Below, in pieces: positions 16,590-33,150 of a stretch of DNA of 64,000 nt. Origin of the DNA: Allodiplogaster sudhausi (lineage: Eukaryota > Nematoda > Chromadorea > Rhabditida > Diplogasteridae). A program made the position numbers and the translations under genes. The notes below the pieces were generated by a model that saw nothing but the letters and a program-made list of their open reading frames with translations, searched no databases and was not told the origin of the DNA. The stretch's first letter is position 1, and each line of letters starts with the position of its first letter. The stretch spans positions 2,873,501 through 2,937,500 of the forward strand of contig CALZFC010000018.1 in NCBI GenBank assembly GCA_945643635.1, in the 5' to 3' direction.

Positions 16590-17440
16590 ATATATGACGG
16601 TGCCAACTAAAAAATCCGCGTTTTTTGAGTTTTGACGTGTTTTGTGGGATTTTTGCAGCGTCTGCAAAAATATACATGTACTAAATTGCAGTTTTTTTCG
16701 ATCAACTTTATACGCGTATAAAAGTATGCAGAAACTCTAGCGAAATATGAGCACAAAAGTACGTGTATAAAAGAGCTCAAAAACAGACCATAAAACTAGG
16801 CAAAAATATACGCGTACAAAAATGTGCAGAAAATATGAGCACGAAAGTACATGTACAAAAGTGCTACGAGTTTTTGAGCAAAAAAGGACGCGTACAAAAG
16901 TGCCCAGTATTTTTGAGCTAAAAAGTACGCGTACAAAAGTGCCCAGTATTTTTGAGCAAAAAAGTACGCGTACAAAGGTGCTCAAAATTTTTGTGCACAA
17001 AACCACGTGTACAAAAGTGCTCAAAATTTTTGGGTAAAAAAGGACGCGTATAAAAGTGCTCAAAATGCTTGTGCTCAAAAACACGTGTACAAAGGGCTAA
17101 AATGTTTTGGGGAAAAAAAGTAGCGTATAAAATAGCTCAAAATGATTTTGGGGAAAAACCCAGATGCTACTTTTTAATGAGCTGGAATGAAAAATATTGT
17201 CAAAAAAGTATACATCGAAAACTAAATTAAATTTACAGGGATAAGAAAAATAAGCTACTGAAAATGCATTAAATATGTCGTACGAATGGTGCATGAGAGA
17301 GTATTAGTAAAAATTTTACAAGGCTAAAAGAACTATATGACTCGACCGATCCCGATCACATGATCTATTCCGTCCTTTCGCGAATGCGCCTGGCCCTGCG
17401 AAGCTCGCTGCTAGCAGAGTTACGAAGCAGTCTGTCGATT
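16590..17440 (+). repeat. Left inverted arm of the composite element
   Basis: The arm runs from the terminal ATGACGGTGCCAAC through minisatellite units to the block around 17340-17440. The last part matches the complement of 21610-21730 with visible divergence, for example in GATCACATGATCTA flanks and GCTCGCTGCTAGCAGAGTTA against a diverged complement. Divergence grows inward, while the outer about 90 bases are almost identical between arms. Confidence 0.75.
16735..17110 (+). repeat. 39-bp minisatellite, left arm
   Basis: About nine degenerate units resemble CAAAAGTACGCGTACAAAAGTGCTCAAAATTTTTGAG. Each unit centres on a palindrome of the type GTACGCGTAC or GTACACGTAC, plus a second inverted motif (CTCAAAATTTTTGAG). 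Because 39 is divisible by 3, several units stay open in one frame (KSTRTKV motif). This is a by-product of unit length rather than evidence of a protein. Confidence 0.8.
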
Positions 17441-18599
17441 CGGACGAGTTTCGGTTGGAGTGGCCACACTTTCCGAGCTGCTCGCCAAGAACTCTCCGAA
17501 CTTGAAAAAACGTAAAATTAAAAAAAATAACGCTGGGAGAGAATCTAATCTTAGCTACAACAATATAACTACATAATGTAGTCGGAAGACAGGGCGGGCG
17601 AGGGTGGACTATTTTTGTGATTACTGTGACATGATTAAAATATGCTCTCTATTCTATGGACAGTCGTGTTATATATCCAATATAGGGACAATTTAAATGC
17701 ATCGACAGGTTACATTCTACATTATTCATTCAATCTTAGTACATAACCCAATACCGCTACCCCGATACCGTAACCAAATACCTTAACCCCGATACTATAA
17801 CCCGGATACCGTACCATAGACTTGTGAGGGCGTGACTCTGCTGACAGTGCCTTTAGAGAACGAGGGCGTCATGCAGCATGGTTGGCTTGCCTTTTGCGGC
17901 GCAAGTCTGTCGCCCTGAAAAGATTTTTCAATGAAGAAAGAAAGCAAAATTGTAGTAAATAAGAATACTCTGACAAGGAAATGAAAAAAATTATGATAAG
18001 GAAACCGTGGAGATCATAAAAAGCAATAGTTAATAAAAATAAAATAAGGGGAGAGAGGGAGAGGGCAGAAGCCCTAACCTAAACTTGGCCAGGAGCTGTG
18101 ACTCGAGGGATGCGCGCAGAGGGGCGTGTTGAGGAGGTCGAGCAGGCCGACTCGGGGGCCATCACCAGAGGAGATCACTGCAACTTGCTCATGGTTAAAT
18201 GGTGCCATCTATATTACGTACACACCCCCCCCCCCTTTTGGCATTTCCGGGAGCCATTCTCCACCCAGATTTGATGGATGCACACAACAGAATTGAGAAA
18301 CTACAGAGCGAGTGAAGGGGATTTATTCTGAATTTCCCCTATCCAACTTACAATACTCTAGATAAAAGATAAAAAAGCAATGCTTTGCAATGTCGCATGC
18401 ATTCATTAATCATGAATCTTTAATTCAAATGTCGTCAATTTGGAGAAGCGACTTTTCCAACCACTACTATATAAATAGCCTTACGCGCAAAGTAAACCAT
18501 CGTGTGCGGAAAAGAAAAAAAAAGACTTATTGTTAGCATCGATGGATGTATTTACAAGCCAAAAAAGAAGAGAAATTCAAAATAAAATCACAATGAAAC
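17441..18599. other. Element body, no gene recognised
   Basis: The sequence is AT-rich and unique, with a C11 run at about 18225-18235. A GC-richer patch at 18085-18170 has, on the minus strand, an exon-like look (GCAG acceptor and a GTTTAG donor), but I could not confirm a frame or partner. CT/GA tracts are nearly absent here, in contrast to the flanks. Confidence 0.55.
17738..17815 (+). repeat. Short tandem repeat, about 14-bp unit
   Basis: About five imperfect copies of ACCCCGATACCGTA follow each other with small changes. They lie inside the body of the composite element. No coding meaning is apparent. Confidence 0.7.
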
Positions 18600-18686
18600 C
18601 TTCTGCTGCGCCACTTTCTCTTCATCCTCCTGAAGCTGTTTCCGCACGCCAGCCAAGATCTTGAACGAGAGATCACCAGGTACGAA
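18600..18686 (-). pseudogene. Exon-like captured fragment, minus strand
   Basis: On the minus strand CTTTCAG precedes 29 open codons starting FVPGDLSFKILAGVRKQLQE and ending EKVAQQK, then AAG|GTTTCA. The phase is 0 at both ends. The composition is amphipathic and conserved-looking, typical of a real host exon. I do not recognise the source gene. It lies opposite in orientation to the KH fragment in the same element, so it probably derives from a second host gene. Confidence 0.4.
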
Positions 18687-19363
18687 CTGAAAGTCATAGT
18701 CATAGAAATGAAGGGCGCAAATAAAAAAGAGAGCAATATGATTTAGACGAAAAATATAGAAGGAAAATTTTTTTTCTTAGAACTTTCTGAAAAATAACTG
18801 CCGAGTATCCCTCATTATAAAAAGGTTTTGAATAAAAAAAATGATATTGTTCTAACCAATTATGTGTGGTTCGAAAAATTTGAAATTTAAAGTGACTTCT
18901 AACCCACAATAACTAGAATAAATGCGAAAACAACTTCAAGTTTAGCACGTTTAGCAAGTCACACGATGGTAAGAAATAGAAACCAAAACTCCAAAAGCTT
19001 CAATTTGTTCAAGAGAATAATTCTAACGAGGAAAACAATCTCTACTTTTGCCCGGGGATATGACCTAATCATAAATCATAAAACGAAGGCAATAAAACAA
19101 AACAAATATCAAAGAGTATGCCAAAACCTCCAAGTGGAGCGTCGGGCTGGTCGCGCCAGGATGTCGCGGCGTCGATGTTGGCAGGGGAGGGGGCGCCGAG
19201 CGTCTAACGTCTCTTAAAGTGTATAGTTATTATACAAATAACAGATCAAGAAAAACGAAAAAGCATAAACAATATCTTGAACCCGGAATCTCCCCTAGCA
19301 CTGAATGGCTTCATTTGCCATTTATTAAAGCTGCGACGCGACCGCAACGCGTGCTAGCAGTTA

Positions 19364-19586
19364 ATATTTTGCACGGTGCATACTGCATAGTGCACGTAAT
19401 TAAGGAGTGATGACTTGCACGGTACATTATATTTCATTATTTGTAAGTAATTTTAAATTTTTGCACGGTTCACGCGATTTAAAATTACGTGAACCGTGCA
19501 AATAATCACTAATGGTCGCCGGGCAATTAATCACCATGTCATTAGGTGCGCCGTACTGCATCATGCACCGTGCAAAAAATTAACTG
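19364..19586. mobile_element. Nested MITE-like palindrome with GCACGGT termini
   Basis: The left end (TTTTGCACGGTGCATACTGCA) is inverted at the right end (TGCATCATGCACCGTGCAAAA), enclosing about 220 bp. A second inverted pair inside (TGCACGGTTCACG and CGTGAACCGTGCA at about 19462-19501) forms a 13-bp stem. With no coding capacity, the layout is that of a small non-autonomous element inserted into, or carried by, the larger one. Confidence 0.6.
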
Positions 19587-21119
19587 TCGCATTTCGAAAT
19601 TCCTCGGTAAAGCTGTGGCTTTTGTTTTCGTGGATTGCTGTTAGGTTTTCTGCAAGTATTCTTTCCATTTATGTAATATTTTACGACGACTATTTGCTTC
19701 TATGTTTTTCTTTCGATTGTAGTTCTGCCATCCTCGCAACGGCATCGAAATGAAGCACCAGGGCGGCAACGACTAGAGGCGCCAGGGTCAATGCCGTCTC
19801 CAACGGTTAGAAATTACTTTTTAGGTTAATTTTTATTTGTTTAATTGTGGGGTACTCGAATTGTTCTGTTTTATTTGAAAGTGGCGTAGGCATTTTGTTC
19901 TTATTTAAGTTTGTTTTTCATTGGAATGAAATGAGTAGTTATTTAGAATAAAAATCAAGGCAATCTGTCAGATTATTTTCCAGTAGCTTATTATTTTCCA
20001 TTTTGTTTAAAACGGGGTAGGTATTTTGATTTTCTTTAACTTGGTTTCACATAATATTAAAATCTAGCAGTTTTTTAATGATAAAATCAAGGTAATCTTT
20101 CTTAAAGGTTTATTTGATAATGCATTTTTTTTGGGAATAGTTTTAACCAGATTTTTCTTTTAGTCTATTAATGTTGGAGCGAAACGTTTGTTTTCCTTAT
20201 TCGGCTATGGATATTGAATTATGGGGAATCGCGTGAATCTTTTTTATTGTTTATTAATGAAATCAACGGTTGGATATTCAACCTTTTTAACGTTAAATTT
20301 CCAGTTCAAGAAAAGGGGTTCATTTAATTTTTTTCATAATTGCGCATCAACACCAACCATGGGAATGGTCTTCTCCATCCGGGATGTAATTGATGTTTAG
20401 AAAAGCTCGCCTTGTTTCACCGAGCAACTTGAGAAGCCCTCTCATAAAATGGAGGTGGATTTAAGTTTAGCGAGAAATTTTATAGAGGTGATTGCGATTT
20501 GTTGAACATGTTGGAGGAGTGGCCATATATTCTCCTATGTACCTAGCCTTTGAGGTGAGCGTATTCTCCATCTCATCAAATTCTTCTGATGCGAGCAGCG
20601 GTTGACCCTGCCTTGTATCGATTGCCACCGTCTGTCTCTCTCTCTCTCTCTCTGTCTGCCTTACTTTCTCTCTGCCTCTCTCCCCATCCTACGCTCTCTA
20701 ACCCTTGCCCCTAACCGCTCTTTCTTCCTCCATCTACCATCTCTGCTTTGCCTCTCGTTTCTATGTGTTCCTAGCTTTACATAAGTACGGTAGCATAAGT
20801 TTGTGATGGTGCGCAATGGTTTAGCATAGTTAGAGAGCAAAGAATTAAAATGGAATAGCGACGAATCTTCAGAATCTAGCAAAGCAGTGTTAAGAGGGGC
20901 TTTTACCACGTGGTCGCTTTTGCGAGAAATTCTAAGCATATCCCCCCTGTTCACTTCTACTCGGTGGTGTCCCCTTGAATCCCTTTATTTATTTAAAAAA
21001 AAGCATAATTTAAAAATGAAACACTGAAATAAAAATGATTGTTGTTGGAAGATAGGGAAATATTTATAACTAAAGAAATATTAGATAGTTGAAAGGGTTG
21101 AAATGGGAGTTTATCTCAG
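19587..21119. other. Element body, AT-rich, no gene recognised
   Basis: The DNA is AT-rich and unique, with TTTTTAATT-type sequence and one short CT tract at 20636-20655. A short GC-richer patch at 19740-19810 and another at 20590-20640 could be exon remnants, but no frame holds. I see no transposase motif in any frame. Confidence 0.5.
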
Positions 21120-21650
21120 GGCTCGAAGGGCCGTGATGGTGACGATGGCGGCAAGGAGGAGGCACGCATGCTCGTGCACCAGTCGCACGCCGGAACACTC
21201 ATCGGACGAGGCGGATAGAAGATTAAGGAGCTACGCGAGTCCACCAGGGTCAACATCAAGGTTAGAGCGAGATGGAGAAGATGGGATTGCAAGGGGATAG
21301 ACAGAAAGGGAGCGAGGAAATGGGGGTAGGAAAGCAGGAGTATTAGAAAGGGAGAGAGAGAAAAAGGAAAGTATGAGAACATAGTGGTGAAGAAGAAGGG
21401 CTAGGAAACCTGCAGTTTGCAGCAACAAAGGTGGGTAGAAAAAAGGAATTATAGTCCGGATGTTTAGGGATCCAACGAAAAAGAAGGAGAAAGGAAATAC
21501 ACAAAATGTTAATACGGAGTAATGAAAGATAACTTGCAGGTCTTCTCCAACTGCGCACCGTCGACGGGCCGCGTTGTTCTGCTAAGCGGAGACGATAACG
21601 CCATTGCTAGAGGCTGCTTCCTAACCCCGCAAGCAGCGAGTTCGGCTTAG
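21120..21650 (+). pseudogene. hnRNP K-like KH-domain fragment, two exons, in-frame stop
   Basis: Exon 1 (21120-21260, after TTATCTCAG) encodes an acidic Gly-rich lead and then ARMLVHQSHAGTLIGRGG, a stop (TAG 21216-21218), and KIKELRESTRVNIK before AAG|GTTAGA. Exon 2 (21540 on, after CTTGCAG) continues VFSNCAPSTGRVVLLSGDD. This is the KH fold in the form seen in hnRNP K: the I-G-x-G-G loop followed by K-I-K-E-L-R and then the S-T-x-R-V-V strand. The stop replaces the residue just after the GxGG loop. After about 25 residues exon 2 runs into right-arm sequence and ends at TAG 21648-21650. The intron and splice sites are kept, so the fragment was taken as genomic DNA, not as a retrocopy. A recoded or edited stop is possible but less likely. 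Confidence 0.7.
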
Positions 21651-22449
21651 CCAGGCCCTCTCGCCAACGGACTAAGTAGATCATGTGATCGGGGGCCAAG
21701 ATGGGCGAGTGATATAGTTCTTTTGATGTTGTTTATTTTGCTAATACCTTCTCATGTACCATTAGTCAGTTAATCTGCTACACATTTATTGAATTGTCAG
21801 GTGCTTCTCTTGCTGTTATTGTGAATTCTATTTTCGAAGTATATGTTTAGCGCCATTTTTCATTCCAGCTCGTTAAAAAGTAGCAACTGGGTTCTCCCCC
21901 AAATTTTTGAACTTTTATATGCGTCCTTTTTGACCCAAAAATTTTGAGCACTTTTGTACGCGTACTTTTTTGTGCAAAAATTTTGAGCACTTTCGTACGC
22001 GTACTTTTTTGTGCAAAAATTTTGAGCACTTTTGTACGCGTCCTTTTTTGTGCAAAAATTTTAAGCACTTTTGTACGCGTCCTTTTTTGCTCAAAACTTC
22101 TGAGCACTTTTCTACGTGTACTTTTTTGCTCAAAAATACTGAGCACTTTTGTACGCGTCCTTTTTTGCTCAAAATTCTTGAGCATTTATATACACGTATT
22201 TTCCTGCTCAATTTTTTTTGCACACTATTGTACGCGTATATTCGTGCTCATATTTCAGAATATTTTCTGTGAACGTTTGTACGCGTATATTTATGCGCAT
22301 TTTTATTTGCTCACGTTTGTACGCGTATAAAGTTGAACAAAAAAATATGCAGTTTAGTACATGTATATTTTTGCAGACGCTGCAAAAATCCCACAAAACA
22401 CGTCAAAACTCAAAAAAACGCGGATTTTTTAGTTGGCACCGTCATATAT
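21610..22449 (-). repeat. Right inverted arm of the composite element
   Basis: This is the inverse of the left arm: GATCACATGATC block at about 21680, minisatellite at 21905-22340, then the GCAGACGCTGCAAAAATCCC block and the terminal GTTGGCACCGTC. Confidence 0.75.
21905..22340 (-). repeat. 39-bp minisatellite, right arm
   Basis: About ten units of the same 39-bp repeat lie in inverse orientation, each with a GTACGCGTAC or GTACGCGTCC core followed by TTTTTTG and TGAGCAC. Both strands stay open over about 100 codons because unit length is a multiple of three. Confidence 0.8.
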
Positions 22450-23149: not shown

Positions 23150-24345
23150 CTCTTCCCTCGCACTTTCTCTTTATATCAATCGCCTTGCCGTCCAATAGCG
23201 CGAGCACTTGCAGTGGACAGCAGCGGATGCCCAAAGATTTGACAAGTTACCTTACAATTAGACGTTCCGATGGTTTTGTAGACCATCGCTAACTCTTAAG
23301 CCATTCAGTTGAAATTGGCTTACTTACTTAGATCTGTCGAGAGCTTCCATAGTAATAGAACAGCCAGCCTTTTTTGTTAGGAAATGGTAAATTATATTAT
23401 TTCTTGATTTTCTCTGGAAGTTGATCTACAATCAATGCAGAAAATGATAATTATTTTCTGTGACTTTTCATTAGAATTCGCATGCAAGGCATACAGCGAT
23501 GACACTTTTCTTACGCTTGTCCTTACAATGTCTTTTCCTTTGCATTTATTGACCTTGTTCAATACTATTATTCTTAAAAGTACTTACTACTTATCACCTC
23601 TATCTATGTACCTACCTACCACCTGCTCTGGAAGGATGTTTTCGCTGCCGAATGTTCTCTGTGTTCATGTCTTCCCTGCCCTATGGCAAACATCTCTGCT
23701 TCTCTTCTTCGTGTTCTCCACCCCCCTCCTTCGGCCGCTCACGTGAAACTTTTGTCATTCGAAGGCCAACAGAGAGAGAGAGAGAAAGTAAGGATTAGTT
23801 AGAGAAAGAAAGATAAGAGTTGTCACTTCATGAAGACTCATTCCATCTTCTTGTCGATTTCCACCATTTCTCTTCGTTTTATTTGTTCGCTTCTCGTTTT
23901 CTCTCTTTACCTCCGTCTCTATCTTTCTCTCTCTCTTTCTCTCTCACTCTCTTTCTCTCTCTCACTGGTCTTTCATCATCTCATCAAATCATTTCTCTCT
24001 TCTCTCCTCCTCCCGTCAAATCCTCCTGGCACTCATTTTTTTCTTCCTGTTCATGTTGTGTTCCCTCTGCCGTAGTCACAGACCCGCTCTCACCCAGAAG
24101 TCGCAGCTCACTCAAACACCAACTGTTCCACTCCTTCTGCCCTCGGGACCCATCTACCCATCTCTCTCTCTCTCTCTCTCTCTCTCATTCTTTCTCATTC
24201 TCCACTCTCTCTCACTCCACACACTCTCTCTCTCTCGCTCTCTGTCACTCACCTTATCCCCCTCTCTCTCCCTTAATCTCTGCCCGTCTCTACCTGATAT
24301 AAGCAGGGTCAAAGTGTGCAGGTGGTGACGAGAGAAGGCACCGAT

Positions 24346-24400
<55 letters not shown>

Positions 24401-25178
24401 GGAGATAGAGAGAGGGAGAGAGAGAGAACTGATAGGGTGATATCATAGGGCACGAGAGAGAGAAAGAGATAGTTAAGAGACAGTTGCAGAATTGAGAGAT
24501 AGGGAAAGAAAGATGGTAGAGTTCCCGATGAAAATGCCAGAAGAAAGGCAGGCTGACAAGAAACACGGAAGTGATCGTGAACTAGGGAACATGTGCACGC
24601 ACGTCGGATATTTCAGACCCGCTCTTTAATTCTCTTGTAACGCAAATATTTTCCTTTATTATTCAGAATAATAGATATGGCCATGTGCTTGTAACCACTC
24701 AACCCCCTTTCTCGTACTGTTTCCTTTTCCTTTCTGCTAGCTTTCCTCTCCTTGAGATGTCCCTGCTCCATGCTTTGTGTGCGGATTTTCATTAGCCTGC
24801 AAGTGACATGGACGCTACTTGCCACTTCTTCTTTTTCTTGCTCTTTTATATCTCTCTCGTTTTCGCTTTCTGTCTCTCCCTCTCTCTCTTTTCCTTTTTT
24901 CTCCTATGTATGCCTAACTTTCTCTCTCTATTTCTCTCTGTTCCCTCTCTCTCTATTTCGCTCTGCTTTTTCTCTCTCTCTCTCTCTTTACTTGCTTTCT
25001 CTGTCACCAAAGAAAGTCTTTCATTATTATTTTCATTGCCTCTCACCCCTGCACATCCATAAACCTATAAAAAAAATTTTTTTCGTTCAACGTACATAAA
25101 TCGATGCTTCGCCTGTCAGTCTTGACTCTACCGTAATCGCCGTTTTCGTGCCGGGACCATTCTCTCTCTCCCTCTAAA
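22450..25178. repeat. GA/CT field between the element and the transporter gene
   Basis: GA tracts lie at about 22633-22690, 22780-22870 and 24350-24430, and CT tracts at about 23095-23145, 23920-23970, 24158-24290 and 24850-24990. Unique stretches lie at 22450-22630, 22910-23060 and 23190-23760. The sequence just before 25179 (TCTCTCTCTCCCTCTAAAATGCAG) could be an acceptor as well as the context of the start codon. No gene was recognised. Confidence 0.7.
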
Positions 25179-26520
25179 ATGCAGATTCCTCACGAGGCTG
25201 CACTTCGCTCGTCCCCGATGGCGGCGGCGGCCGAAGTTACGAGTGCAACGATCGCCTCTTGGTCCGGCGACGAGGAAGCGCTGCCGCTCACGGCGTCTTC
25301 TTCGGGCGCCGGCGTCACGTTTTCCGTCGCGGCGGCCGTAAATTCGTCGGCCGCCGCGCCAGCCGTGCACAACTGCGCCAAGTCGATCATTGATCGGAAG
25401 CTACGGAAGTACGCGTCTGAGACGTCCTTCGGCACGGCTGAGACGGCTTCGGATGGCTCTGGCGCAGCTGCCGATTTGGTGGGCGTGCCAGCTCCTGCGC
25501 CTTGCGCGTCCGCGCGCGCCGGTCGCTTCGTCGTTCGTCCGGTGCAGCTGCGGAATGGAGGGGGCGCAGGCGGCGCGGCGGCCGCTTCGGCCGCAGCGGC
25601 TTCCGCATCGCGCCGTCGCCGCCATGACTCGGACGCGTCCGGCAGCGTCGGCTCCGAGGCCACCGTCGCCTCGGGCAGCGCGACACCCGTCCGCGGCCGC
25701 CCCGACGGCGGGCATCCTCTGATGTGTTCGGCGCCACGCCGAATTCGGCGGCCAAAGAGCGCGAGCAACGCGGAAATGAACGTCAGCCTGACGTCGGCGA
25801 CCATTCATTCGCTCGAAAGCGAAGAAGTCACTTGCGGCGGAGGAACCATGAGCATTGGCGGGCCAGACGGCATTTCCGGTGTGGTTGGCGGCATCGGATA
25901 CGGTAGCAGCAAGGAGCGACGACCCTCGAATGTCTACATGTTCGACGACGACAGCGTCCACGAGTTTGAGGATGATGACGGTTTGGCCTCTTTTCTCTCT
26001 TCCGCTCATTCTCTTCAGTTAATATGCGCTCCGCGTATATGCATTGGCTTACAAACATTTTTTTAAGGTAAAAAACGTAAGGACTCATAAAGCATGCTTT
26101 TCTTTTAAAAAGTGTATAAAATATCAACATTACAGATTAATGTTTAAAAAAAAATAAATTCCGCTTTTTTTTGTTGCGAAATTCAAACATTCCGTTTATG
26201 GGCGATATCGTTTATATTGTTTAAAGAATAGTTTGCTAAATTTGTGTTTATTATTAAATAATAATATTTACAAAGACAAATACTTCTCAACTATATTTTC
26301 CTTAACATTATTCCTTCTTTTATAGCATTAATTCTATCTTTTATTCCGCCTCCCTCAACACAGTTCGTCTGCTAGACTCTTGCCTTAGCTGTCCCCCTGA
26401 ACCTCGAATGACAAGGCGAACTTTTTCCTTCTTGGCTCAGTTCCAGAGAAGAGACTCTTCTTCTAACACAGGTTCTATAAACGCGCAAATAGAACAAGTT
26501 CACATGTAAGACTGAGAGAC

Positions 26521-26563
<43 letters not shown>

Positions 26564-26634
26564 AAGATGTAAAGACAAGCAGAGGGAGAGAAAAGAGGAG
26601 AGAAAGTGAGAGAGAGAAAGAGAGGGAGAGGGAC

Positions 26635-26682
<48 letters not shown>

Positions 26683-28069
26683 GGAGGGAGAGAAGGTACG
26701 CGTGTACCAGGAGAGCGGCCGAGCGGCATATAATTGAGCCACTTATCTCACTCCCTCTCCATGCATCGTGCTGTCAGTACTGCCAGAGAAGGGCTTCATC
26801 TCTGACGATGGCAGGAGAACGAGAGAGAAATAGAGAGTAAGAGAGACAGAGAGAGAGAGAGAAAGGGAAAAAGAAAGAGAAGAGAAAGACAGCAAAACAT
26901 GGACAGACCAAAGCCTAATTTTTACGTCGTTCTCAAACACATGCCAAAAGGCATCGGCGTAAGCAGCTCCATATGCAAACATATCTCACTCTTTATTTCT
27001 CTTTCTCTTTTCTATTCGATCTACTATCTTCTATCTTTCTTATTTTATCTCTCTCTCACTCCCTCTCTATAATTCTCACTCTCTCTCTCTCTCTTTCTCT
27101 CTAATTCTCACTCTATTTTTCCCTCGAGCCCTTTTTCCAGAATCTCTCATAGTCTAACGAGCTTAAAACGACTGCTGTTTTTCTCCTTTTTTTGGGTTGA
27201 AGATGCCGCTCAAAGTGCCGAAGAAGAAGAGGAGAGAGGGACGTGTAGAGAAAGCGACAGGGAGAGAGTAGGAGAGAGAGGGGAGAGATGCGGAGAGAAA
27301 ATGTTGAGAGAAAAGGAGAAAAGAGAGAGAGAGACAGTGAGAGAAAGACAGTGAGAAGGCGGATGATAAACAGGCTTCTTCAGACTATGAGATTAGACGT
27401 GCGGAGAGAGAAAGAGCAGTCACCAAGAGTGGTTCTAAGCCGCGAAGCTAGAATGGGGCATAAATTGGCGAGCTTTTTTAGTTTTAGTTTTATTGCCAGA
27501 GGATGAGGCCAATTTGATGCTCGAAACAATTATCGTTTGTGTTTAATTATATGACTAATTAATTTTTTAAAATAATAATGCCTAAAAGGAAATTTCCAGA
27601 ATAACAAAGAAAGCCGTTTTTATATAAGATACACACTCTGAGCACGAAGCAGCTTCTTTTTGCGAAGCCTGTCGGTTAATCCTTGAACTGACAAATCTTC
27701 CAGCTACCGGAAGTCTCCGGTTATCCGGAGCAATGGAGGTCTTATGCAGGGAATCCTTAGCCGCCACCAACAAATGGCTATTTTTACATATCTGCCCTTT
27801 ACAAGTCTTTTCTGGAGAGATAAACACGTGGTGCCGTCTTCTGTTTCGCTGGCTATATCTGCCACTTGCTTTTTCGGTAAATCTTATCACTTTCTCGCCT
27901 TGCTCCTCGAATCATCGTCTGCTTGTTGAAAGGCCCCTCTTCTTATTTCGAAATAACTGAGGACACTAAATTAGCAGTGAAGCAGACTGGAGTATGAAAT
28001 AAGAAAAAAAGAATTCTTATCAGAAGTTCTGTATGCTCTTCTCAGTCGGTTTATGGTGGAGTGAGAGAA

Positions 28070-28108
<39 letters not shown>

Positions 28109-28957
28109 AAGAGATTGCGAGAAGTAGCAAAGTGATCGAGTTAGAGACAGATAAGGATAGAAGTAGAATAGATAAAGAGTGAGGAAGAGATATTCAGAGA
28201 GGGAGGAGATGAAGCTTCTCCTTCTCTCGTTTACGAATCAAAGCTCGGAAAAGAAGTCAGAAGCAGAAGAAGGACAAGGATGCCGTCGTTGACGAATTCG
28301 ATGTAGAGGGAGAGAGAGAAAGAGAGAGAGAAAGAGAGAGGGAGAGAGAGAACCGGAGCATAAAGAGAGAGAGAGAAAGAGAGCGAAAGTTAGGTAGAGA
28401 GAGAGAGAGGGACAGAGAAAGAGAAATAGAGAGAACGGGAGAAATAAATAGGAGGATCGAGGGAAAAGGATGAGAACTTCTCGCTTTTCAACTCTCTCTC
28501 TCTCTCTGTAATTCTTTTTATCTAACTCTCTTCTCCTTGCTTTGTTCTTTCTTTTCTGTGTAGTCTCATCTGCTTGCACATCTTTTTGTCCTCCATCATC
28601 TCCCTTTAAATATGTGTCATTCTCTCCCTCTCTCTCTCTCTCGTTCTCTCCTTTTCTCTTTCTCTCTCTCTCTCTCTATCTCTAACTCCCTCTCTCTCTC
28701 TCTCGTTCGCTCTCTCTCTCTCCCACTCTCTCTCTCTTTCTCTCTCTCCCTTGTCCTCTCTGCAAAACATTTATTCTCGAGAGCGCAGAGTGGCAATCGG
28801 CCCGTGCATGGCGCACTCGGGATGGAGAGAAAGGACGGATGAGAAGGAGCGTGCGGCTGAGTTGGCATGGACTGAGGGGCGGGGTCTGAGGTGAAAGGGA
28901 ATAGAGAGGGAGGGGGGGGGGAGGAAAGAGAGAGGGAGGAGAGAGAGAAAGTGAGAG

Positions 28958-29003
<46 letters not shown>

Positions 29004-32000
29004 CGAGCCAGAGCATATGAGCATAGAGGGCGGAGTGGTGAAGAGGAGAAGAGAAGAGAGAGAAGGATGGATAGAGTGAGCCTTTCCCTCCTTCTACTCC
29101 CTTTGCTTGACGCCAGCCGCCGCTGAGTTGTCGCTCTAGACGAAGAAGCTGACAACGACGTGGAGAACGAGATCGCTCTCTTCTCTCTTTCTCTCGCCTC
29201 TCTTCTCTCTCTCTACACTCTCTCCCCCTTTGACGTCAACTCCTTGTGATCATCGACGGCCTTACAAAGCGTTCCAGACTTGTCAGCAGCTCCGACAACC
29301 ACGGGTTTTCTAGCAGAAGAAGAGAGCCGCGAACAGACGACGCCTTATGGCCTCGGTGCCAACGACGCTCGAGAATGCGTCCTCGCGTCTCCTCGGCGCC
29401 AATTCGCCGCCAAGTCCTCGGCGCGGCGGTTCTGGCGTCCGCGTCGTCATCACGGCGACCGATTCGGTTCGCCGTGGCGTCGCGCCCCGAACGCCGCTAC
29501 CGACTCCGCCAGAAGACGAGACGGAGTGTCAGACGCCGTCTGGCCCGCGTTACGTCAAAAAGCCCGACCCTCGTATGCGTCAGCTGAATCGGCGCACCTC
29601 TCACACACTGCTCTACGTGCCCGAGCAGCGACGCGTCTCCAACGTCTCGGGAACGTCGATCGCGTCGTGCCCCGTGGAGTTGGCATCCACCGACGAAGAG
29701 GAGGGCCCGCCGGCGCCGCTCTCCTCGCGGATGCCACTGGTGTCCGCGGCAGTACCCCCAATCGGGCTCGCGGCGTCGCCGACGCTTTCCTCGCGTCGGA
29801 AAAGCGTACAAACGGGCGCGCCCGCCATCGGCTTCCGTCCAGTCCGCTCTTTCGAGCGGAGAGCCTCTCAGCCAACGCTGCAGGCGGACGTCTTGGCGAA
29901 GGCTAATTCGATCGCCGCCCGGCGGGCCGGCAGCGCGGCGCCGGAGCGGCACGCGGAAGAGGGCGGCGGAGGGAGCGGAAGTGAAACGGCCGCCGCTTCC
30001 GAGGCGTCGGTGGCACTCGCGGCCGCCGGCACCAACCATCAGAGCAACAACCAAATGAAGCGGACGGACACGCTCGAAGAGGAAGACACGGCTTCGGCGC
30101 GCGCCAAGATGCTCTCGAAGAGAGTCAGCTGGCTGTCCATGAAGAGCCTGGCCGAATCGGTAGAGCCCTTGCTCGGGATCAAGGCCAGAGTCAGAAGATC
30201 CTCCGGACACGCCTCACCTACGAACACGACGAATACGACGGTGACAGCCACGGGAGGTGGAGGAGGGACGGCGGGCAGGGATTCCAGCCAGTACGGCAGT
30301 GTCATGCAACTCAATGATGAACTCGATCTCGACTCGGACACTCCTCCACTTGACACACTCAGCTGGAGCTTTGCAGGTCGGAGAAGGGGAGAGACGAGAG
30401 ACGAGAGAGAGACAGAGAGAGAGAGAGAGAAAGAGAAAGAGAGAAAGGAGGAGGCAAAGTATACAAGTATTACATTTCATAGCCCGTTCATGCTGCAACA
30501 TTTCTGCGAGCTATTTCCGTTCACCTTTGCGCCTTTATCGTTCATTGGTTTCTTTGCAACACTATTTCTCCTCTTTCATATTTTCTTCTTGCTCTTTGTA
30601 CTTTGTTCTTTAAAAATCCTCTCTTCTTTATGTTACATTGTTTATGTTTTTCATGAATGACGAAGAGCGATCAGTTGGAGAGTTAGGGGAAGAAGTTGAA
30701 AGCGAGAGAGATAGAGAAAAATGCCGAGAAAGAGAGAGTTAGAGCGAGTGTGCAGATCAGATAGAGAGCCATCGAAAGAGAGAGAGAGAAAGAGAGAGAG
30801 AGAGAGCGAGAGAGTGAAAGAGAGAAAGAAAGAGAAAGTCCGAGAAGCGTAGAGATCATTGGAGTGAGGCAAAAGTAGCGTCAGCATCTCCATTTAGCTT
30901 CCGATTCTGATTCCAAGCTGCGCTCTCTGCCGTCGTCGTTGTTGAAAAGAGAGTGCTAAATAAAAATGGGAAATATTTAAGAGATTGAATCGAAAGAGAG
31001 CGAGAAATCGAGAGAGAGTGAGTAAGGAATAGAAAGAGAAAGATAGAGAGGGGAATAGAGAGAGAGAACGAGAGATAGAGAGATAGAGAAAGTGTGAAAG
31101 AGAAAAGAGAAAAAAGTCTTTATGAGAGCGGTTGAATGAAAACGGGCCGAGCTCTGCATGAAATATGGCAGATGAATGAGTTCTTTCCGCTGCCCTCCCC
31201 GTTCGCTTTGCAGACGGAAAGAGCTTCATGATGCGAGAGTAGTCTCATTCAATGAACTGAGACAGAAGATGGAGAGAGAGAAGGAGAGAGAGAGAAAGCG
31301 AGAGAGAGAGAGAAATAGATGAGAGAGCAGAGAAACCATACAAGGAATCAAAGAAAAGGAAAGGGACATATACGGCAAGTCCGATTTGCTGAAATGACGA
31401 GAGAGAGAGAGAAAAGGAGAGGGAGAGAAAGAGTGTGAGAGAGAGCGCTTAAAGAATCCATTGACGCTTCGTTGTATCTTTTTTTGCCTTATTTCCTGCC
31501 CTTTTATGGCTCAAAAAATGCTGCTTCATCATCGTGACAGGAAACGATGATTATAGAGGATTAAAAATTAGTGATTAACAGTCGACTACTCAAAAGAGGA
31601 TGATTTCTTTCTGTGATATGTGCTACATACCATTAGATTATGCTGCATACTTTCAAGAGATAAGAGACTCTATCATCGATGTTCATATCAGCACAAAACG
31701 AAGAGTTTCGGTTCTCTTGACCCAGACATCTTGCCTAATTTATCTGTCAAATATGCGTCTACGAGGTTCATAAGCTTTCCTAAAGGCCTGAATTAAAGCA
31801 ATGTGAGAAAACGCATCAATAAGCACTTGAAGATGAATTCGAGCAAAAAGACTTTTTGAGCACTCGTCATCTTTTCCCCTTCTTTCTCACTAACAATAAG
31901 CATCTGGCAGGCGGCGAGCCTTTTCACTGCTTCTTTGTTTTTTCTTTCTTCTCTCAAGAGCGCCGCGTTCCAAGGCAGGTGCCGGAAGCTTATGGCGAGT

Positions 32001-32545
32001 TCATTGCAGCGGCATTGGGATAGGTGGACTGCGATTGGGCTGGGATATTTGGGGGAAGTGAATGGGGGGAGAGGGGTTCAATGGCTGCGAACAGGTATTG
32101 GTATCAATTCCAGAGGAGTACTCATGGATATTGCACTGGATATAGCACAAGGTGACGCGAGAAAAGCCAACGGCTATTTCTTTCTGCACTAAATACTCAA
32201 GAGTTTAAAAATCACAAAAAATAAACTACCTTAAAATAGCATTAAAAAAAGTAAAATGACTTACTGAACATATGAAATCGGAAATTGGATTAGTCCTATG
32301 AAGATTAAGTGCATCAGACTTGTTTGCCAGAGAGACAGGGGAAGTAAGAGAGGAAGAGGGACAGAGAGAAAATAGAGAGAGAGATAGAGAAAGGAAAGAG
32401 ATAGAGATAAAAGTTTTATTTTCAGACGAGTACGACAATGTGACTCTGATGTATGCGAAGCACGAGAAGATTCCGATGAAAGACTTCGGCTCAGAGATCC
32501 GGTTAGCTATTAAAAATAGGAAATTAGTTAACGCCGATTATTCTC

Positions 32546-32582
<37 letters not shown>

Positions 32583-33150
32583 CTCTCGCTCACTCTCTTT
32601 CTATCTCTCTCAGTCTCCCTATTTTTCTCTATCTCTCAATCCCTAGCGATAATCCAATTATCAACTTGTACTTTATAAAAGTGCCTGAATGACATTACAA
32701 CTTTGTATATATGTATGCAGCAATATAGACTCATGAAGTTCATATTGAGTGCACTAAATTGTGAAATAAGAATATGTACTCGAAGAAAGAAACAATTGTT
32801 TCAGAGCCACCATGGACATTGATCACCTGCTAAACAAATCGGTCCTTCTACTCGATCTGCAGGAGACTTCGCTTGAGGAGATCTTTGCAAAGTTAGCGAT
32901 TCTCCTGTCTGAATATACATATGCACATTTCATTTATTTTTCTTGTTTACAAATAAATTTCAATATTCCCCATTCTGTATTCAAAAGAAACTTGCTTGCA
33001 GATGCCGATGCTTTTTTTTGCTAAGAAAAAATTTCTCAATTACTTGGTACTATGTTATCTGAAAGAAATGTCACATTCACATGAGCTTCAATGTTTTTTT
33101 AAAGAAATTAGCCAGATTTCCCTCTCGCTCTTTCTTTCTCTCTCTCTCTT

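Follow-up and report, generated by a model that had tools for sequence, protein, structure and literature searches.

What kind of DNA is a 5.9 kb stretch whose two ends are inverted copies of each other and whose middle carries pieces of a gene that resides elsewhere in the genome? Positions 16590-22449 of a 64,000-nucleotide stretch of Allodiplogaster sudhausi contig CALZFC010000018.1 (the window, meaning that whole stretch) raise this question, and a preliminary description had seen there a Pack-type non-autonomous layout with captured host DNA. We consider it highly probable that the stretch is a non-autonomous fold-back DNA transposon of the Pack-TIR type (TIR, terminal inverted repeat) with many same-ended relatives, and that its hnRNP K-like cargo, captured from DNA and already broken, was acquired once or twice long ago, was later recombined and is also found in a second end family; the element would be moved in trans by a DUF7869 protein. 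Three of the features by which Pack-TIRs are recognized are present: the stretch is bounded on each side by the terminal inverted repeats of a transposon family, it holds host-gene DNA with a parent elsewhere, and it has retained an intron, as expected of capture at the DNA level.

The inverted arms lie where they had been described, with outer ends (16590-16626 and 22413-22449) complementary at 37 of 37 bases, followed by a 110-bp block (16621-16730 and 22308-22417) that is 92% complementary and by pairing that runs on, piecewise, as far as 17195 and 21855. The arms of about 600 bp both contain 39-bp tandem units, so that long inverted arms with short tandem repeats, the hallmark of fold-back elements, are found here, together with an inner paired block of 83 bp:

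16590..17195, plus strand, left inverted arm with outer end ATATATGACGGTGCCAACTAAAAAA
16761..17111, plus strand, left-arm 39-bp tandem units with TACGCGTA-type core
17351..17433, plus strand, inner paired block, 77% complementary to 21611-21693
19340..19590, no strand assigned, palindromic segment, also within the segments shared with C355 and L061
21611..21693, minus strand, inner paired block, partner of 17351-17433
21855..22449, minus strand, right inverted arm, outer 37 bp as in the left end
21862..22212, minus strand, right-arm 39-bp tandem units

The palindromic segment had been taken for a nested miniature inverted-repeat transposable element, but it is not a recent nested insertion, since the segments shared with C355 and L061 (two of the cargo-bearing places discussed below; L and C denote loci and contigs) contain the same stretch. 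Purine/pyrimidine runs of at least 15 bases occupy 2.9% of the element body, 16-17% of the flanks and 11.4% of the window. This low tract content had been read as a sign of recent insertion and is real, although as evidence of age it is weak, the element lying at the 8th percentile among equally long stretches of the window.

Within the window the 20-mer of the ends occurs twice with at most three mismatches, against a mean of 0 in 100 shuffles. A search for other copies with these termini, proposed at the outset, gave 435+415 = 850 matches (at most two mismatches) in the 351.8 Mb assembly of 382 contigs, and 0+1 with the reversed control. Among the first 100 listed end matches, many pairs are about 150-210 bp apart, several about 1.45-1.6 kb and others about 2 to 8.8 kb. 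At one place (G000, C1:3995742-3995789) two facing family ends span just 48 bases, which makes it either a strongly shortened derivative or a remnant. We sampled 17 elements, namely that of the window, which is one of the first 30 loci, and 16 of the remaining 29, and an inverted partner end is present in 16 of the 17. When 49 distinct ends were found by their inner bases, the five bases of ATATA before TGACGG were present in 47, 48, 49, 49 and 49 of 49, and TAC was favoured before ATATA (T, A and C at -8, -7 and -6 in 33, 25 and 33 of the 49 ends). On the evidence of these copies, we regard the 5.9 kb stretch as a mobile DNA element with many same-ended relatives.

The 16 end pairs sort into four bodies, so that elements with common ends differ in what they enclose, as had been proposed for comparison: body A (the window, L032, L034, L036 and L038; 5.4-6.4 kb), body B (L031, L033, L035 and L040; 3.8-8.8 kb), body C (L037, L042, L043 and the chimera L041) and body D (L039, L044 and L045). 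The five full body A copies are 97.4-99.0% identical outside gaps in global alignment; lower figures obtained elsewhere are averages over overlapping arm matches. Bodies B, C and D match the window in the arms alone, with the exception of L041, a body C element (90-91% identical to L037 in ends and centre) that holds inverted pieces of the body A cargo at 70-87%; these come from the upstream cargo of the KH gene and include no KH exons. The centre of body C is about 72% identical to the middle of body B, in both orientations. In L045 (body D) there is a large inverted duplication, and the same open frame is found on each strand. Size differences within body A are due to a plain deletion in L036 and to an unrelated insertion in L038, and revealed no target duplication of this family; the L038 insertion, at window position 20764, comprises about 490 G+C-rich bases, has the ends CAGAGATGGTAA/TTACCATCTCTG, with TGTGTTCC on either side, and resembles a small hAT-type element.

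The cargo of the window element consists of the following pieces:

18588..18686, minus strand, exon-like piece in the opposite direction, preceded by AG and open to a stop
19723..19805, plus strand, exon-like piece with ATGAAGCACCAGGGCGGCAACGAC, also in the KH-bearing L049 and C355
20302..20982, plus strand, segment with 73% identity to the host gene on C29, where its counterpart lies between the first and second KH exons
21119..21260, plus strand, captured second-KH exon with an in-frame stop
21261..21539, plus strand, captured intron with GT...AG kept
21540..21616, plus strand, captured following exon, up to the end of host similarity

The KH-domain fragment with intact intron and splice sites was correctly recognized beforehand: the joined exons, with X at the stop, match Pfam KH_1 (E 2.6e-13), and the two host loci, L047 on C29 and L048 on C124, align through exon, GT-AG intron and exon in register. 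Window 21103-21616 is 81.5% and 77.8% identical to C29 and C124, respectively (BLAST); the KH regions of the two host loci, intron included, are 89% identical to each other. In the host gene on C29, Pfam KH_1 recognizes three exons (E 1.2e-6, 5.9e-17 and 4.9e-12), with a glycine-rich stretch before the last of them, which is the layout of hnRNP K. In the PDB ranking Nova-1, FUSE-binding protein and hnRNP K stand close together for the third KH exon of C29, and PCBP2 comes first for the cargo KH; for this reason we describe the gene, from its sequence, as a three-KH, hnRNP K-like gene rather than as hnRNP K. The host counterpart of 20302-20982 lies 2.1 kb before the second KH exon, and in the element this gap is just 0.12 kb. 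No counterpart of 19723-19805, which may be a first exon, was found in the 8.5 kb of the host gene examined.

Since the intron is still in place, the cargo was taken from DNA. A 571-bp KH query gave 46 genome matches from the 40 of 43 candidates scored: 11 at 94-100% over nearly the full length, two at the host loci (78-81%) and 33 partial ones spread over 27 other places (70-92%). For the opposite exon, the 40 of 46 candidates scored yielded 40 matches, 11 at 97-100% and 29 at 83-91%, and the 11 near-identical ones share the 11 contigs of the KH cargo, at a distance of 2.0-3.0 kb in ten and of 7.8 kb in C4. That exon-like piece bears out the earlier reading, being open in the same frame in all five body A copies read. 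The in-frame stop in the KH exon is common to the same five copies (L038 has a further 3-base loss), and thus the cargo was dead before the body A copies spread; as far as the sequences tell, it is a dead passenger. The recent insertion suggested earlier therefore applies to one part of the history. Amplification appears young, given the identity among the body A copies, and the capture itself appears old, given host loci that are only 78-82% identical and a stop common to five copies.

The cargo is not confined to elements with window-type ends. Four KH loci (L049, L050, L051 and L054) end in ATATAAGACAGTGTGAATTAAAAAG, next to TAC, with 19 of 25 bases as in the window-type end, and this second type of end has 375+374 = 749 genome matches (at most three mismatches; control 0+1). 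We performed interval tests on contigs C1-C27, using exact ends among the first 100 places, save one end of C1:3050884-3056888. Six of the seven KH matches outside body A on these contigs lie in intervals bounded by two second-type ends, and the seventh (C21) has one listed second-type end 1.4 kb away; for the opposite exon, eight of ten such matches lie inside these intervals and two outside. Two of eight DUF7869 matches are also inside, in intervals of 10.2 and 10.4 kb. These two intervals (G000, C16:2637858-2648060 and C27:3398217-3408583) hold one DUF7869 match each, and four more places have the same DUF7869 score and stop pattern. The interval C1:3050884-3056888 (L061; 6005 bp, both ends of the second type) shares a composite body segment with the window:

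18599..19965, no strand assigned, segment common to the window and L061, 87.3% identical over 1394 columns

The arms of L061 have no BLAST match to those of the window at E 1e-4, and the one array found in it has 30-bp units. Conversely, L052 has the window end type, with arms 66-76% like those of the window, and its KH piece groups with those of L050, L053 and L054. In C355, which carries a KH copy, the left end was not found within the 9.4 kb read.

These arrangements raise the possibility, to which we would give an even chance, that the cargo was already present in an element of the second end family and from there reached the window family when elements recombined. The closest KH relatives of the window, L049 and L051 (87-91%), have second-type ends, and the host loci reach 80-83% in the same alignment; in the KH tree, body A groups with L049 and L051 (second type), and L052 (first type) stands in a separate group together with L050, L053 and L054. 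Second-type ends were seen in L050 and L054, the L053 stretch reaching no end, and the chimera L041 shows inverted cargo pieces inside a body C element. Nevertheless, the direction of such a transfer is doubtful, as the KH tree is small, short and unrooted, its key split has a support of 0.935 and L054 contributes only about 135 sites; moreover, 20302-20982 matches the host gene and not C355. Each of the two KH groups includes both end types, suggesting that cargo was exchanged or arms were replaced, and, judging from these sequences, the two end families seem to have traded cargo and ends.

No transposase had been visible in the element, and indeed neither gene of body B, as joined exons, has a match in the 64 kb window (tblastn), nor did Pfam give anything at E 0.01 on the plus strand of window 24001-33002; a probable source nevertheless exists outside the window. 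A six-frame Pfam scan of the body B element L033 (600-8101) gave a single match above cut-off, DUF7869 on the minus strand, and the joined exons match this model at positions 28-180 of 192 (E 9.1e-14). Besides the arms, L033 has conserved exon blocks of two divergent genes in common with L056, a diverged element whose 20-mer ends are of this type too. The 609 L033-derived residues of the first (DUF7869) gene are covered by 609 in L035, 606 in L056, 506 in L040 and 121 in L055, and the 488 of the second by 487 in L035, 465 in L056, 471 in L040, 440 in L031 and 146 in L055; L031 has only the second of the two genes. Differences between L033 and L056 at the three codon positions number 147/104/330 in 542 codons of the first gene and 161/96/316 in 487 codons of the second, so that in either gene differences are roughly three times as frequent at third positions as at second ones, which argues for selection on the proteins. 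The two divergent multi-exon genes of body B thus appear to be under purifying selection between lineages.

In the DUF7869 protein an aspartate in RIDGMG and another in ILADN are followed by VGHTHCEVD, and the motifs read for a DDE type (RIDGMGKHST, ILADN and VGHTHCEVDAFF) suggest such an enzyme. DUF7869 has 27 matches in this genome and none in 14 control genomes, and no mention of it was found in the literature searched. In the second gene we note a GQHR motif; Pfam gave nothing above cut-off for it, the match to ThsB TIR-like (E 0.0079) falling below, and its joined exons found nothing at E <=1 among the roughly 8000 protein-database candidates that share most words and were scored, and nothing in PDB. 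The reverse transcriptase frame at positions 6956-7759 of L040 (minus strand; Pfam RVT_1 E 5.8e-13) lies inside a body B element. Since the window element shares its outer 145 bp with body B elements at 96-98%, body B is the likely transposase source for it.

Alternatively, the mover could be an enzyme of a known superfamily (MULE, Harbinger or Tc1), with body B sharing the ends secondarily. Gene-carrying fold-back relatives have been assigned to MULE or Harbinger, according to excerpts of two reports (PMC2572040, PMC8277862), and the ends that were read are a small fraction of the 850. We regard this as unlikely, because in the six frames of a single body B copy (L033) DUF7869 scored above cut-off and none of the known transposase families did, neither MULE nor Harbinger, and because DUF7869 is also enclosed by second-type ends in the 10.2 and 10.4 kb pairs. 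Sola and some other superfamilies use short AT-rich targets. The passages on Sola seen in PMC5199201 give no target length. Going further, the longer partners may represent an undescribed DNA transposon superfamily with two divergent genes (one DUF7869 and DDE-like, the other with the GQHR motif), fast-evolving fold-back arrays, ends and cargo that were repeatedly reshuffled, and one capture spread by two end families; we offer this tentatively, as a suggestion somewhat less probable than its converse.

It is very improbable that the KH gene is an accessory gene of the element itself, kept for its function. Apart from the two host loci, the KH piece does occur at 11 places in near-identical form and at 27 others, some of them in second-end-family elements, but the shared stop and the further loss in L038 argue against a kept function, comparison with the window showed no KH exon in bodies B, C and D (only L041 having upstream cargo) and there are three KH exons in the host gene on C29; we rejected this explanation on these grounds. 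Ancestral single-locus inverted DNA or a segmental duplication, for which nothing more than the inverted layout speaks, can practically be discarded, since the copies of body A are found on different contigs, host loci elsewhere match the cargo and, when the 400-bp flanks of the 16 pairs were compared, none matched that of another copy, flank matches being limited to arm repeats in the L034 right flank, a 33-bp piece, a 73-bp piece and the window's own overlap L001.

For the fold-back transposon moved in trans by the DUF7869 protein, we infer the enzyme's identity, the movement in trans, template switching and the direction of exchange as parts of one course of events. Arm repeats would promote fork stalling and template switching, placing KH-gene DNA between two ends (the model outlined in the parts of PMC8277862 consulted), and the cargo may have been acquired in this way once or twice, long ago. 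The body B protein would then move the element through the common outer 145 bp, giving the 11 near-identical copies, and recombination among elements would pass the body to second-type ends.

Several observations weigh against this reading. Mobility is deduced from sequence copies, no transposition having been observed, and one of the 17 sampled elements (L046) has no partner end within 9.7 kb. Target duplications are not visible beyond the shared ATATAT in 15 of 16 pairs inspected by eye, and therefore any duplication is likely to span 6 bases or fewer; L041 sits in an AT run, where a target repeat cannot be judged. No MULE-type duplication of 8-10 bp was seen, the flanks outside ATATAT differing, by eye, in the window and 14 other pairs. 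Six of the eight DUF7869 matches on C1-C27 fall outside the listed pairs of second-type ends. Among body B copies the ratio of nonsynonymous to synonymous substitution rates ranges over 0.4-0.75 in the DUF7869 gene and over 0.5-1.1 in the other gene, and the mapped codons contain 1, 1, 2 and 4 stops in L033, L035, L040 and L056, respectively, so that none of the body B copies read can be called intact. The DUF7869 protein found no relative at E <=1 (about 8000 protein-database candidates sharing most words were scored) and its DUF7869 region nothing convincing in PDB (one match, E 2.7), and hence its role as an enzyme is argued from its motifs.

Such layouts had been called rarely described in animals. 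This is true of multicopy cases, although precedents exist. Turmoil-1 of C. elegans, as described in excerpts of PMC2572040, is a 5 kb element with 760 bp arms, inside which lie two exons and an intron of an RNA-binding-protein gene as well as part of another gene; its transposase is of the Harbinger type, and the listed copies are one full copy and eight fragments. It is thus an animal precedent for long inverted arms and the capture of an intron-bearing RNA-binding-protein gene, unlike which the window element has its cargo between the arms, with 11 near-identical matches and a second family of ends, and the body B copy scanned gave no Harbinger family. Portions of PMC8277862 survey 370 animal Pack-TIRs, only four of them multicopy in reference genomes, and describe Ssk-FB4, which resembles the window element in its fold-back arms with repeats, its captured host gene with introns, and its several copies; a template-switch origin is proposed in that survey, and Ssk-FB4 differs in its 9-10 bp target duplications, none of such length having been seen in the window family. 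Plant Pack-MULEs also have inverted ends around intron-bearing host gene fragments, again according to the portions of that source consulted (PMC8277862), and in their case too the window element departs in the absence of a MULE family in the body B copy scanned and of an 8-10 bp target duplication. Tetris and Galileo of Drosophila, likened here from partial descriptions alone, are fold-back elements with repeat-containing inverted arms. Foldback, hnRNP K and transposon were not mentioned jointly in the literature searched.

The kind of element is therefore already known in animals, since Turmoil-1 and Ssk-FB4 embody the same idea, and this case differs from them in its number of copies, in having two end families and in an enzyme source that is unclassified. 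Multicopy gene-carrying DNA transposons of animals are few (four cases in the portions of PMC8277862 consulted), and this genome combines 11 near-identical copies and 27 places with partial ones, two end types and candidate enzyme sources. If our explanation is true, the entry of cargo into a fold-back element and its passage between families could be studied directly, in copies young enough to align.

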